DNA of 64,000 nucleotides from Rhodothermia bacterium. GTDB lineage: Bacteria > Bacteroidota > Rhodothermia > Rhodothermales > JAAAOL01. A program made the translations under genes and the position numbers. Under the pieces are notes generated by a model that saw only the letters and a list, made by a program, of their open reading frames with translations, was not told the origin of the DNA and did no database searches. This document shows positions 55,391 to 62,891 of the stretch, in pieces. The stretch covers positions 1 to 64,000 of the forward strand of contig JAUIDY010000002.1 of assembly GCA_030428385.1 (NCBI GenBank), given 5' to 3'. The number at the start of each line of letters is the position of its first letter. The stretch's first letter is position 1.

Positions 55391-55503
55391 CAAACCCCAA
55401 GACCCCCCAACGCACAGCTATATATATCACCACTACCACCAATCATGTATGCCGATTCGGGGAAGCTCATCCCGAAGCGATCGTCGGCACCAAGAACCAC
55501 AAC

Positions 55504-55509
55504 AGGAGG
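55504..55509 (+). promoter_or_regulatory. strong Shine-Dalgarno site of ftsZ
   Basis: AGGAGG (in CAGGAGGGACC) lies 8 bases before the chosen ATG. Most genes in the window lack a consensus site. It is complementary to the anti-Shine-Dalgarno-like stretch in the RNA found just after ftsZ. Confidence 0.75.
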
Positions 55510-55517
55510 GACCCACA

Positions 55518-56756
55518 ATGTCTATCAGCTCACGATTCACGTTCAACGAAGAACCCAATGACGAGGCCAAGATCTGCGTGGTCGGCGTCGGCGGGGGCGG
55601 TGGCAACGCCGTAAACAACATGATCGCCCGCGGCATCCAGGGCGTTGAATTTATCGCCATCAACACGGATGCGCAGGCGCTGGACCGCAACTTGGCCCCG
55701 CAAAAGATTCAGGCGGGCCGCGACCTGACCAAAGGACTTGGCGCGGGCGCGCGTCCCAGCATCGGGGCGCAAGCCGTGGAAGAAAACCGCGAGGAGTTGG
55801 AAACGGCGCTGAGCGGCTTTGACATGGTCTTTATCACCGCCGGGATGGGCGGCGGCACGGGCACGGGCGGTGCGCCGATGGTGGCCGCCATTGCCAACGA
55901 ACTCGGCATCCTGTCCGTCGCTATTGTTACCAAGCCGTTTGATTGCGAAGGCCGCCGCCGGATGAAATACGGCCTCGAAGGCATCGAACACCTGCGGGAG
56001 CACGTCGATACACTCATCGTCATCCCGAACGAGCGCCTGCTCGATATCGCCGAGGCTGATACGAGCCTGATCGATGCTTTTAACAAGGCCGACGATGTGC
56101 TGTACAACGCCACCCGCGGGATCAGCGATTTGATCACCGTGCACGGCCTGATCAACCTCGACTTCGCCGACGTGAAAACGACGATGCAGAATGGTGGCAC
56201 CGCGCTCATGGGTGCCGCCCAGGCTTCGGGCGAGAACCGCGCCGAGAAGGCCGCCGTGGATGCCATTTCCAGCCCGCTGCTCGATGGGCTGGCCATCACC
56301 GGTGCCCGCAACGTGCTCGTCAACATCACCGCCGACCGCTCGCTCGGGATTCGGGAGGCAACAGCCGCTGTTAACATCATCCAGCAAGAAGCCGGGGAAG
56401 ACGTAGAGGTGATTTTTGGTACGGTCATCGACGAAGAGATGGGCAACGATCTGCGCGTCACGGTGATTGCGACGGGCTTCGACAAAGAAAAGCGCGAGCC
56501 GCAGAAACGCCGCACCGTCCCGCTGGAAGGCGATGGCAATGTGCCGCATTACAAAGGCCAGGATAACCTGCGCCACCTCGATGAGCCTGCGTACACCCGT
56601 CGGAGTCGCTTCGACCTGCCGACGGACGACCAGCTTGACCTGGAGCCCCATATGCCTCGGGTCCGCCATGTGAAACGCACGGAAGTGAACAAGGAAGGCG
56701 ACCGCGAAAGCATGGATCGGGATCTTCCTGCGTTCCTGCGCAAGCAAATGGATTAA
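55518..56756 (+). CDS. ftsZ: cell division GTPase FtsZ
   Basis: A 412-aa tubulin-like GTPase forming the division ring. Hallmarks are VVGVGGGGGNAVNNMI, the tubulin signature ITAGMGGGTGTGGAPMVA, NADNATRGISDLI-like VLYNATRGISDLI, the T7 loop LINLDFADVKTTMQNGGTALMG, and a C-terminal peptide (RDLPAFLRKQMD) that binds FtsA and similar partners. I used the Met before SISSRFTFNEEP because the Shine-Dalgarno sits in front; the longer frame is not conserved. A structured RNA starts a few bases beyond its stop. Confidence 0.97.
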   Translation: MSISSRFTFNEEPNDEAKICVVGVGGGGGNAVNNMIARGIQGVEFIAINTDAQALDRNLAPQKIQAGRDLTKGLGAGARPSIGAQAVEENREELETALSGFDMVFITAGMGGGTGTGGAPMVAAIANELGILSVAIVTKPFDCEGRRRMKYGLEGIEHLREHVDTLIVIPNERLLDIAEADTSLIDAFNKADDVLYNATRGISDLITVHGLINLDFADVKTTMQNGGTALMGAAQASGENRAEKAAVDAISSPLLDGLAITGARNVLVNITADRSLGIREATAAVNIIQQEAGEDVEVIFGTVIDEEMGNDLRVTVIATGFDKEKREPQKRRTVPLEGDGNVPHYKGQDNLRHLDEPAYTRRSRFDLPTDDQLDLEPHMPRVRHVKRTEVNKEGDRESMDRDLPAFLRKQMD

Positions 56757-56761
56757 CGAGG

Positions 56762-56993
56762 CTGGAAGAGTTTGGGATGTGGCAAGCCCGTCGGGGCTGT
56801 GCCCGTCTGTAGGCGGGTGCCATCACCTCCTTGATGAAGCCATGATCCCATAACACGGCCCTTGAGCAAGGCCGGAGGTCCTGGTGCTGCGCAGAGCAAA
56901 AGGCGCAACATGCCAGGGTTGTGGTTCGGTCGCACAGTGCCATGTGCGGCCTACCCAAACGCCGCGTCCGTTCGGGCGCGGCGTTTATTTTTT
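56762..56993 (+). ncRNA. structured RNA downstream of ftsZ
   Basis: A closing helix GTTTGGG (56770-56776) / CCCAAAC (56954-56960) bounds three arms. Arm 1 (TGGC 56780-56783 / GCCA 56839-56842, or alternatively GGGAT 56774-56778 / ATCCC 56845-56849, which displaces the closing helix) carries hairpins AGCCC-GTCG-GGGCT and CCCG/CGGG. Arm 2 (CCATAAC 56848-56854 / GTTGTGG 56918-56924) carries CGGCC..TT-GAGC-AAGGCCG and CCTGG..TGCGC/GCGCA..CCAGG. Arm 3 is the 9-bp hairpin GGTCGCACA / TGTGCGGCC (56928-56951). A strong terminator ends it. It could be a 3'-UTR-derived RNA or an independent one; I found no separate promoter. Confidence 0.75.
56957..56993 (+). terminator. rho-independent terminator of ftsZ and the downstream RNA
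   Basis: A 13-bp stem, AAACGCCGCGTCC / GGGCGCGGCGTTT (one G-T pair) with a GTTC loop, followed by ATTTTTT. Its first four bases overlap the closing helix of the structured RNA, so the two foldings compete. Confidence 0.92.
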
Positions 56994-57046
56994 CAACCGG
57001 CGTGAACCAAACCGTCGCGTGGCCGACCATATAGATAGGTAATGCC

Positions 57047-57595
57047 ATGAGACGAACCCCCGACGATATCCTGGATGAGTGGCTGGTGCTGCGCTGCCAA
57101 ACCGGCGATGCCCAGGCGCTGAACGTGCTGGCACAGCGCTGGTACGGACGGCTCCAGCGCCATGCCTACCGGCTGACGGGCGAGACCGACGCGGCGACGG
57201 AGGTGGTGCAGGAAGCATGGGTCGCCATCATCCGGAGCATCCATCGCGTGAAAGACCCGGCACTGTTTCGGGCATGGATGTACCGCATCGTATCTAACAA
57301 AGCCGCCGACTGGGTGCGCAGCCAGCAACGCCGCCGCCGCTACCTGACCGCCACCAACGGACAAGAGGTGTCAAAAACCAACCCCGATCCTGCCGAAACC
57401 CAGGACATCCGCATTGTACGTGCGGCCCTGAAACACCTGAGCAAAGAGCAACGCCGGGTGCTCACGCTGTATTACCTCGATGGCTTGTCGGTGCGCGAGA
57501 TTGCCGTGGCGCTGTCCATCCCCGTCGGCACCGTCAAATCCCGTCTGCACCACGCCCGCAACCATCTCCGAACCATGTTGGAGGAAGCACCATGA
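57047..57595 (+). CDS. ECF-family RNA polymerase sigma factor
   Basis: A 182-aa sigma factor with region 2 (AYRLTGETDAATEVVQEAW, FRAWMYRIVSNKAADWVR) and region 4 (LSKEQRRVLTLYYLDGLSVR, PVGTVKSRLHHAR). It lacks regions 1 and 3, as normal for ECF factors. It directs polymerase to a specific set of genes when freed by a partner. The next gene starts inside its stop (ATGA), and that product is the probable partner. Confidence 0.93.
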   Translation: MRRTPDDILDEWLVLRCQTGDAQALNVLAQRWYGRLQRHAYRLTGETDAATEVVQEAWVAIIRSIHRVKDPALFRAWMYRIVSNKAADWVRSQQRRRRYLTATNGQEVSKTNPDPAETQDIRIVRAALKHLSKEQRRVLTLYYLDGLSVREIAVALSIPVGTVKSRLHHARNHLRTMLEEAP

Positions 57596-58032
57596 ACCCG
57601 AAGTCCAACGATCAATTCGATGCCCTCATTCGCGTGGCCCTGTCGCGCGAAGAAGCTGACCTTTTTGATCAGCTTGGCGAACCGACCGTGCCCGAAGCCT
57701 TTCTGGGCCTGTTTACCGGTTCGTCACGGCGGCTGGTCTGGATCACCACGGTGGTCATCCTGGTGTTTTTTGCAGGCAGTATCTACTGCGCGGTGCAGTT
57801 CTACCAAGCCCCCACGATCCGCGAGATGATGCTGTGGGGGGCGGGGCTGTTTTTCTGTATCCTGGCGGTCCTGGCCAACAAGATCTGGAACTGGATGGAG
57901 ATGAACCGCCAGATGCTGATGCGGGAAGTCAAGCGCCTGGAACTACAGGTAGCCCATCTCTCGCACAAGCTAGAGGAGAAGGAAAACGATGAAGATGAGA
58001 CAAGCGAAGAAGCGTTGGAGACAAAGCCCTAG
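57592..58032 (+). CDS. DUF6768-like membrane partner of the ECF sigma factor
   Basis: A 146-aa protein. It opens FDALIRVALSREEADLFDQLGE, then two membrane helices (LVWITTVVILVFFAGSIYCA and MMLWGAGLFFCILAVLA), a cytoplasmic coiled coil (REVKRLELQVAHLSHKLEEK) and an acidic tail. This layout fits DUF6768, known mainly next to ECF sigma genes. It overlaps the sigma gene by 4 bases, implying coupled synthesis. An anti-sigma role is inference. Confidence 0.8.
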   Translation: MNPKSNDQFDALIRVALSREEADLFDQLGEPTVPEAFLGLFTGSSRRLVWITTVVILVFFAGSIYCAVQFYQAPTIREMMLWGAGLFFCILAVLANKIWNWMEMNRQMLMREVKRLELQVAHLSHKLEEKENDEDETSEEALETKP

Positions 58033-61217: not shown

Positions 61218-62891
61218 ATGCTATTCTTTGTTGGTGCATTGATACGGCTTGTGGTCGACAGGTGGTGCCTGATGGTGGTGTTGCTTCTCATGGGAAATGG
61301 TCCCCAGGAGGCAAGGGCGCAATCGCTTCATTACCGAGGGGTGGTCTGGAATCCGCCCGCCAGTACGGCGCAGGCCCAGGCAGACTTGCGCCAGATGCAC
61401 GCGATGGGCATCAACGCGGTGCGCACGCCGTTGCTTCGCGACAAAAACCTGTGGTTGCTCGCCGACTCGCTGGGCCTGCACCTGTTTCAGGAACTGCCCC
61501 TCGACGCGCTTTCTGCCGAGGCGCTGAACGACACCCTCGCCTATGCCACGCGGGTGCTCGAACTGCTCCTGACTGAAGCCCGCGACCATCCGTCCGTGCG
61601 GCACTTTGGCCTGGCCCGCAACAGCGATACCAGCGAGGCGGTCGCCTGCGCTTTCTTTGAGCAACTCACGCAGCGGGTGCATGCCCGTGGGCCTTCCGGC
61701 AGCCAGACCTATTACCTGACGCCGTTTACCACCGCCGACCAGTGCCGCGATGCCGTGGATTTGGTACTGCTGGATGTGCGCGACGACGCCAATCCGCTGG
61801 CGGCCCTTGCCGATGGGACGGGGCGAATAGGGGTTGGGGCGCTTGGCCTGTGGGTGTATGCCACGGGTGAAGGGGTGCAGCGTCCCCACACCCCGGAAGC
61901 CCAGGCGCGGTATCTGGAAACCCATTTGGGGCAGATGGCTTCCGTGCCACAAAGCGCGGTGTTTGTGCACCGCTGGCGTGACCTCGAAACGCGGACGCCC
62001 GACTTGCGCGGTGATGTGATGGCACCTTATGTCCGGCGCTACGGGATATTTGCGGCCAACGGGGTGGCGCGTCCCGCCGCTGCCGTAGTGGAAGGTATGT
62101 ACACTGGCACGCAGACAACCTTTGCCTTGCCCGCTGGTCGGCCCCCCGTGCCCGGTGCTGCCTGGTCGGTGGTGATGGGCTGGGGCGTATGTATTCTGCT
62201 CGCCATCTGTTATGCCTTGTCACCCCGCCTACGGTTTATGGCTCCTCGCTTTTTTGTGGCACCGGGGTTTTACCGCGAGTCCATCCGCGAGGGCCGTGAT
62301 ATCATTCTGTGGACCAGCGTGATGATGCTGGTGTTGTTAGCGTTAAGCGTGGGGGTATGGGGAACGTTGCTGCTGGAGGTGTTGCGCAGCACGGAGGCGT
62401 TTCATGTCCTGTTTCAGCAACTCCCATTCAGCCTGCAAGTGACGGGCGCTACCTTGCTGGCCCAACCGTGGTTGTTGGTGTTGCTTCTGGGCTGTATCTA
62501 TGCCCTCGGCGTGGCCGTCTGGGCCACCTTGCTGGCGGTCGTGGCCCGAAACCGCAACCCGCTGGTGCCGGGGCAGGCACTCATGCTCGTCCTGTGGCCC
62601 ACCTGGCCCATGTTGTTGCTGATGGTCGCGGCCATGGTGATTCGGCTTAAACCACCCGAGGTGGCGGTGACCTGGACCCTGGTGTTGCTGGTGGCCGGTC
62701 TGTTAACCACCGTATATGCCCACATACGCGCCTTGATAGATTACCGGGGCGTGACGCGGGTTTCCGGCGGCATCACGCTGGCGCTTGTTTTTGCCAGCCC
62801 CATCACCGCCATGCTGATTATCGGAGGTTTTGCCCTGCTCGAAGTACGCACGTTGATGCCGCTGGTCTGGCACTTGCTCACCCGCCTTTGA
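61218..62891 (+). CDS. glycosidase-like domain fused to a multi-helix membrane domain
   Basis: A 557-aa exported protein. The N-terminal about 290 residues resemble a GH2-type TIM barrel (YRGVVWNPPASTAQAQ, MGINAVRTPLLRD, LGLHLFQELPLD, HPSVRHFGLARNSDT, TPEAQARYLETHLG). In GH2 enzymes the HPS segment ends in a catalytic Asn-Glu; here the place reads NSD, so normal catalysis is doubtful. The C-terminal part has about six membrane helices (for example VVMGWGVCILLAICYALS, LLLEVLRSTEAF...). I do not know another example of this fusion. Confidence 0.65.
   Translation: MLFFVGALIRLVVDRWCLMVVLLLMGNGPQEARAQSLHYRGVVWNPPASTAQAQADLRQMHAMGINAVRTPLLRDKNLWLLADSLGLHLFQELPLDALSAEALNDTLAYATRVLELLLTEARDHPSVRHFGLARNSDTSEAVACAFFEQLTQRVHARGPSGSQTYYLTPFTTADQCRDAVDLVLLDVRDDANPLAALADGTGRIGVGALGLWVYATGEGVQRPHTPEAQARYLETHLGQMASVPQSAVFVHRWRDLETRTPDLRGDVMAPYVRRYGIFAANGVARPAAAVVEGMYTGTQTTFALPAGRPPVPGAAWSVVMGWGVCILLAICYALSPRLRFMAPRFFVAPGFYRESIREGRDIILWTSVMMLVLLALSVGVWGTLLLEVLRSTEAFHVLFQQLPFSLQVTGATLLAQPWLLVLLLGCIYALGVAVWATLLAVVARNRNPLVPGQALMLVLWPTWPMLLLMVAAMVIRLKPPEVAVTWTLVLLVAGLLTTVYAHIRALIDYRGVTRVSGGITLALVFASPITAMLIIGGFALLEVRTLMPLVWHLLTRL

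Follow-up and report, generated by a model that had tools for sequence, protein, structure and literature searches.

We report that the ftsZ gene of a member of the Rhodothermales is followed by a structured RNA element, parts of which are complementary to the 5' leader of the same gene. Among relatives within the order the structure is conserved, its position after ftsZ is fixed, and the two complementary ends co-vary. The predicted pairing of the tail with the ftsZ leader is well supported, and we think it likely that the element forms the 3' part of a bipartite RNA switch acting on ftsZ, in which the 3'-UTR element, or an sRNA derived from it, would pair with the ribosome-binding region and repress translation. 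The level of FtsZ sets the timing of division, and RNA control of ftsZ has been described mainly in enterobacteria, where the RNAs that act on ftsZ are encoded by other genes or on the opposite strand. In the present case ftsZ appears to possess an RNA brake of its own, which is conserved over an order and, with different letters, beyond it.

The ftsZ 3' element and its conservation

The window, i.e. the whole stretch of DNA analysed (64 kb), is part of a 6.19 Mb genome. Its ftsZ gene (55518-56756, + strand; stop codon 56754-56756) encodes 412 amino acids with Pfam matches to Tubulin/FtsZ (4.7e-49) and FtsZ_C (3.6e-29); the start was inferred from relatives and the Shine-Dalgarno (SD) sequence, and translation starts are generally inferred throughout. 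The element spans 56757-56996 (+ strand), as judged from the fold z-score and the conserved position after ftsZ, and ends in a strong intrinsic terminator with a T tail (56957-56996, + strand; hairpin 56957-56986). The next + strand gene of at least 60 aa starts at 57047 and encodes an ECF sigma factor, which together with a DUF6768 membrane-type protein occupies 57047-58032. In several relatives (e.g. L003) ftsZ is followed by a gene that resembles window positions 61218-62891 (RGVVWxPP motif, no Pfam match), and approximately 4 kb therefore seems to be different in the window.

The initial annotation had proposed a structured RNA between the ftsZ stop and a strong terminator, and our analysis bears this out: hairpins are conserved, stems covary in related genomes (as do the leader contacts described below), and the region 56756-56999 folds with -122.6 kcal/mol (z = -5.3; 0/200 shuffles as good). 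With the terminator removed (56757-56953) z is -2.6 and one of 300 shuffles was as good. The terminator thus supplies much of the z-score and folding energy alone is modest evidence; the decisive support for the structure is its conservation in relatives. The branched arms and the 9-bp hairpin GGTCGCACA...TGTGCGGCC (56928-56951, + strand) that had been proposed are both present in the minimum-energy fold. For a further suggestion, a 7-bp closing helix (GTTTGGG 56770-56776 / CCCAAAC 56954-56960), the complementary sequence is present, but the helix is absent from the minimum-energy fold, overlaps the terminator arm and has no counterpart that we could see in relatives; it was not retained. The remark that no open frame runs through the region is correct for + strand frames of at least 60 aa, but a 196-codon frame on the minus strand (56458-57048) lies antisense across the end of ftsZ and the element; it has no Pfam match and is probably a chance frame in G+C-rich DNA.

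Four further parts of the element, all on the + strand, are used below. The P2 hairpin (CATCA-CCTCCT-TGATG, 56821-56836) exposes an anti-SD loop (56826-56831) with a predicted unpaired probability of 1.0; its counterpart in relatives is a CUCC-loop hairpin (loop CUCCA or CUCCG) with a covarying stem. The P2 loop region ATCACCTCCTT (56823-56833) looks identical to the usual 3' tail of 16S rRNA, and it is possible that it mimics the ribosomal anti-SD. The P3 hairpin (CGGCC-CTTGAGCAA-GGCCG, 56856-56874) carries GAGC at 56864-56867, the proposed kissing loop. P4 (CCTGG...CCAGG, 56880-56917) belongs to the predicted fold and varies in sequence between families, while Site A' (GTTGTGGTTC, 56918-56927) starts the conserved segment TGTGGTTCGGT, as indicated by k-mer enrichment, and is the complement of 55494-55503 in the leader. 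Since the predicted fold already pairs part of Site A', contact with the leader must open it. By inspection, CCATAAC (56848-56854, + strand) is a possible 5' helix side with 56918-56924 as its partner; such a helix would enclose P3 and P4 and compete with the Site A pairing, and a fold forced to contain it reaches -88.3 kcal/mol versus -90.9 for the minimum. In families f5 and f11 (families are numbered, f1 being the window's own) a helix CGAACC/GGUUCG, absent from the window, surrounds the hairpins, where CCAUAAC/GUUGUGG is a possible substitute for it.

The pieces that recur after ftsZ in relatives are P2 (loop CUCCA), P3 (loop UGAGCA), P4 (loop GGCUGU in family f5), the segment UGUGGUUCGGU and the terminator, and the sequences downstream of ftsZ show a strong enrichment of the k-mers TGAGCAAGG, TGGTTCGGT and TGTGGTTC. 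A GAGC-loop hairpin is present in 41 of 80 such sequences, compared with 1-5 for anagram tetramers and a mean of 3.0 (maximum 9) for shuffles. All six pairs of the P3 stem show double-sided changes (covariation score 0.752 versus at most 0.153 with the partner slid), and the P2 stem scores 0.501 versus 0.195. For P2, P3, Site A, Site B and the joint kissing alignment, rows and registers were picked by motif, which inflates the fraction of paired cells, so the relevant number is the excess of double-sided changes; moreover, the genomes, mostly metagenome-assembled, are related, and the counts are not independent events. MAFFT/RNAalifold applied to the first 16 sequences also recovered P3; a P4-loop/GGUUCGG pairing from the same alignment was rejected, its pairs being nearly invariant.

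Two covariance models, R1 (the family f5 form) and R2 (the P2-P3 core, built with the window excluded), gave 18 matches among 114 whole genomes and 19 among 245, respectively. All 37 are located directly 3' of ftsZ in the same orientation, and at E <= 0.001 no element was found away from ftsZ in the 245 genomes. Applied to the window, R2 matches 56842-56877 (E = 0.0011), the top place in the 64 kb; in a scan of the whole phylum it gave no match outside the order. In related genomes, DNA similarity searches did not recover a copy of the element as it stands in the window, and the best same-family candidate (G001:C335) was rejected as a chance match inside an apparent coding sequence. Two loci of family f11, L070 (G011) and L082 (G022), have ftsZ and the element separated by a small frame that includes a hydrophobic stretch; the element is kept despite the insertion.

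No Rfam 15 family reached its cut-off in the window or in the scanned Rhodothermales ftsZ loci. The same applies to 20 ftsZ loci from other orders of the class, and in 20 loci mostly from other classes only tRNAs, all in one locus, were found at cut-off; permissive scans gave chance-level matches only. The candidate motif named in the initial annotation, ftsZ-DE, has, like the element, a position downstream of ftsZ; the element is without an Rfam 15 match. An identity with 6S RNA was rejected: RF00013 has no match in the element's own genome, and the element consists of several separate hairpins and is not rod-like with a central bubble. None of 30 Rhodothermales genomes searched reached the Rfam 6S cut-off, which suggests that the 6S RNA of this order may be divergent; sub-cut-off matches were seen in L109 (G016:C270:9563-9750, 38.4 bits) and L110 (G025:C100:21336-21468, 35.8 bits), both on contigs other than those carrying ftsZ in each genome.

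Complementarity and co-variation between the ftsZ leader and tail

In the window, the leader of ftsZ contains Site A (GAACCACAAC, 55494-55503, + strand), a perfect complement of the element sequence GUUGUGGUUC (56918-56927). Nowhere else in the 64 kb does this 10-mer occur, and GAACCACAAC-N0-10-GGAGG is found once in the 6.19 Mb genome, at ftsZ. Taken alone, this 10-nt match is not decisive, since 78 of 5000 shuffled leaders (~1.6%) reached it, and the case rests on relatives; no close relative has both ends. In family f3, which includes two loci titled Rhodothermus sp., six of seven loci have a perfect complement of 13-15 nt with partly different letters (CGCTGAACCACAACC / GGTTGTGGTTCAGCG in L004 and L058). 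Complements reach 13 nt in f12 (ACAACCCTGGCGA / TCGCCAGGGTTGT in L096) and are mostly 8-12 nt in families other than f3 and f12. Family f13 has TCGAACCACAG / CTGTGGTTCGA (L087) or CAAACCACAG / CTGTGGTTTG (L080), and f5 has the variants TACAGCCAA / TTGGCTGTA, AACAGCCA / TGGCTGTT and TCAGCCAA / TTGGCTGA. The lineage differences between these complements are matched changes on the leader side and the tail side; the Site A alignment has double-sided changes at six pairs and scores 0.272 versus 0.140 when slid. Three loci (L007, L011 and L017) have, besides an ACAGCC/GGCTGT contact, an extra complement of 11-12 nt between leader CAAAACAGAACG and CGTTCTGTTTTG, the latter 8-9 bases after ftsZ.

Site B is the SD itself (AGGAGG, 55504-55509, + strand), which lies directly 3' of Site A in the window and is the complement of the P2 loop CCTCCT. 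A CUCC opposite GGAG is expected for any SD, and therefore the flanking bases alone count here. The pair formed by the base that precedes GGAG is U-A in 17, C-G in six, U-G in two and A-U in one case (the window), i.e. all 26 are paired and covary across families; the second flanking pair is standard in 25 of 26.

The third contact is a proposed kissing interaction between P3 and a hairpin in the 5' leader (TTCGGGGAAGCTCATCCCGAA, 55456-55476, + strand) with the loop GCTC at 55465-55468, i.e. at -53 from the ftsZ start. In relatives this hairpin is located ~45-70 bases before the start and has the loop NNGCUC(A/G), its GCUC being complementary to the GAGC of P3. It is present in 39 of 68 leaders (shuffles: mean 0.89, maximum 3), and all seven stem pairs show double-sided changes. 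The leader hairpin and P3 occur together in 35 cases, neither occurs in 21 and only one of them in 12 (Fisher p = 1.4e-7). Although the four GAGC/GCUC core pairs are invariant and hence uninformative by themselves, the pair flanking them varies (A-U 22, G-C 9, G-U 3, mismatch 1), with G-C in f3 and in the pair of loci L008/L010. A joint alignment of both stems and the loop-loop pairs has 93.4% of its cells paired and double-sided changes at 14 of 19 pairs, with a score of 0.637 versus 0.144 for the best slid alignment (0/500 shuffles). Two complementary hairpin loops that covary, here at the flanking pair, are what a kissing contact would show. CopA/CopT is a kissing-loop antisense system in which CopA is encoded opposite its target; complementary hairpin loops likewise serve as contacts, whereas the ftsZ partners flank the gene and share one strand.

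Families f9 and f12 (L065, L066, L076, L091, L095 and L096) have a CGCCAGG hairpin or segment in place of the GAGC hairpin, and their leaders have CCUGGCG opposite CGCCAGG, i.e. another solution with the same leader relation.

As controls, the 45 bases before each ftsZ start were compared with the 300 nt downstream and the longest perfect complement was scored. Complements of at least 10 nt were found for 21 of 71 own leader-tail pairs, versus 2.1% of cross-family pairs and 1.1% of shuffles; among families with the element they occur for 35% of 60 ftsZ genes versus 0.9% of 111 other genes at the same loci. The number of leader nucleotides covered by 9-mers was 5.46 for own, 0.62 for cross-family and 0.44 for dinucleotide-shuffled pairs. 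Two collinear sites of at least 7 nt were present in 27/71 own pairs (cross-family 7.9%, shuffled 5.4%), and collinear pairing totalling at least 18 nt in 10/71 (cross-family 0). The families without the element (f14 and f15) show no such leader-tail pairing, and outgroup ftsZ loci from other phyla showed no pairing apart from one 9-nt match. RNAduplex energy was dropped as a discriminator since it did not separate own from cross-family pairs, chance GC-rich duplexes being dominant, and the length of perfect complements was used instead.

A proposed model for ftsZ autoregulation, its alternatives and known systems

The co-evolution of the element loops with complementary leader sequences suggests that ftsZ probably controls its own translation. 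According to our model, the ftsZ transcript would end in the element (coding region, hairpins, terminator). The GAGC loop of P3 would kiss the GCUC loop of the leader hairpin, Site A would zip with the 3' segment or, in family f5, with the P4 loop, and the CUCC loop would pair with the SD and cover it; the order of Sites A and B permits one antiparallel two-part duplex with the remainder looped out. Occupation of the SD would block 30S binding, and translation of ftsZ would thereby be repressed by its own finished transcripts or by an sRNA processed out of these, giving negative feedback on FtsZ dosage. Because P3 is located between P2 and Site A', the kissing contact would cross the two-part duplex and the three contacts may not coexist; kissing is perhaps a first step and not part of the final complex. 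We infer that both parts are co-transcribed, meet in cells and bring about repression, acting in cis or through a diffusible fragment. The earlier suggestion that the RNA might regulate division genes is thus partly supported and takes a sharper form, with the leader and SD of ftsZ itself as the complementary, co-evolving partner of the element; this partner (55456-55509) lies outside the region annotated initially. The absence of covariation in related genomes, which the initial annotation had named as a refutation, was not what we observed.

The element might alternatively be the source of a free sRNA with wider mRNA targets, its CUCC loop serving as a general anti-SD seed and ftsZ being one target among others. 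Its C-rich CUCC loop and its hairpins plus terminator would fit, and known C-rich-loop sRNAs have a similar architecture, but we regard this as unlikely given that Site A plus the SD is unique in the genome, at ftsZ, that the flanking bases track ftsZ lineage by lineage, that the element was never seen away from ftsZ in the 245 genomes, and that no sigma-70-like promoter was found for it (Bacteroidota-type promoters being outside the reach of that scan). That the element is so strictly linked to ftsZ points to an origin in the ftsZ transcript and not to a free-standing sRNA gene. The same pairing could also activate, if the joined 5' and 3' ends protected the ftsZ mRNA or aided ribosome recycling. 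The pairing evidence is neutral on the sign, and Site A and the kissing hairpin are upstream of the SD; however, Site B covers the SD core in many families and known cases of pairing at the SD repress (PMC3868564, PMC7398697, PMC10907235), which makes activation improbable in our judgement.

That the element acts only as a terminator or mRNA-stability structure, with incidental leader complementarity, would agree with the strong terminator that supplies most of the fold z-score, but it is very hard to reconcile with loop sequences that are conserved or co-vary with the leader, and with own pairing far above the cross-family, shuffled and other-gene controls. Inverted repeats acting at the DNA level around ftsZ, as recombination or protein-binding sites, would account for two copies that are inverted relative to each other; yet the matches coincide with the SD and with hairpin loops, covariation in the stems includes G-U pairs, the sequences are free to differ between families and all copies have one orientation, and we give this explanation next to no credence.

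To our knowledge, as far as a partial literature search goes, an ftsZ leader-tail circuit has not been reported. Known systems offer a precedent for each step of the proposed switch. The closest is the icaR mRNA of Staphylococcus aureus, whose 3' UTR has a UCCCCUG motif complementary to its own SD region, as tested experimentally, and expected to block initiation (PMC3868564); there both sites are on one mRNA, and the pairing goes with lowered translation and RNase III cleavage. Complementarity between the 3' UTR and the gene's own SD region is common to both, but icaR uses one motif whereas the ftsZ element has up to three predicted contacts, one of them a kissing loop for which the leader has its own hairpin; it also concerns an essential division gene, co-varies over an order and is predicted here from sequence comparison. 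OppZ and CarZ of Vibrio cholerae are autoregulatory sRNAs processed from 3' UTRs that act on their own transcript (PMC7398697). Like the element, they derive from the RNA at an operon's 3' end before the terminator and are complementary to their own mRNA in a feedback arrangement; they are released by RNase E, bound by Hfq and act in trans. The ftsZ element, recognised through genome comparison, belongs to another gene and phylum and has a larger conserved fold. RNA-based control of ftsZ in enterobacteria is also exerted by DinR of Klebsiella, which comes from the dinI 3' end and represses by occupying the ftsZ ribosome-binding site (PMC10907235), by the prophage-derived DicF (PMC5069750) and by StfZ, a cis-antisense RNA from the ftsA-ftsZ region (PMC9628754); none of these is an ftsZ 3' element that co-evolves with the leader. 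The co-variation reported here supplies exact compensatory mutations, and comparing a gene's tail with its own leader is suggested as a general route to 5'-3' UTR circuits missed by family-based searches.

Leader-tail complementarity beyond the Rhodothermales

Among 28 ftsZ loci from other orders of the class, 28.6% have complements of at least 12 nt, versus 0.24% of shuffles. Their letters differ (AGCAATC / GATTGCT and TAATCCAGTAAAT / ATTTACTGGATTA) while the leader-tail relation is the same; since R2 finds nothing outside the order, this extension rests on complementarity and not on homology of the fold. We are inclined to believe that an ancient RNA feedback mechanism is present in ftsZ mRNAs across much of the phylum Bacteroidota, with mutual recognition and co-evolution of leader and tail; the letters would turn over between lineages and the relation to the SD region would be kept. 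The versions would be the GAGC/GCUC kissing contact plus ACCACAAC (Rhodothermales), AGCAAUC or UCCAGUAAA (other orders of the class) and ACCACAACAAGG (another class). If true, FtsZ dosage would be controlled by RNA at the ftsZ gene itself.

In that other class four loci of family f27 pair the leader ACCACAACAAGG with the downstream CCTTGTTGTGGT, in most cases placed within or close to a hairpin loop 3' of ftsZ; one further genome has a 14-nt match, and most other loci of the class show none. In one f27 genome three tRNA genes are present 3' of ftsZ (L225, 3045-3535). Finally, the core ACCACAAC is common to the f27 loci and the window, which could reflect common descent or common constraint.
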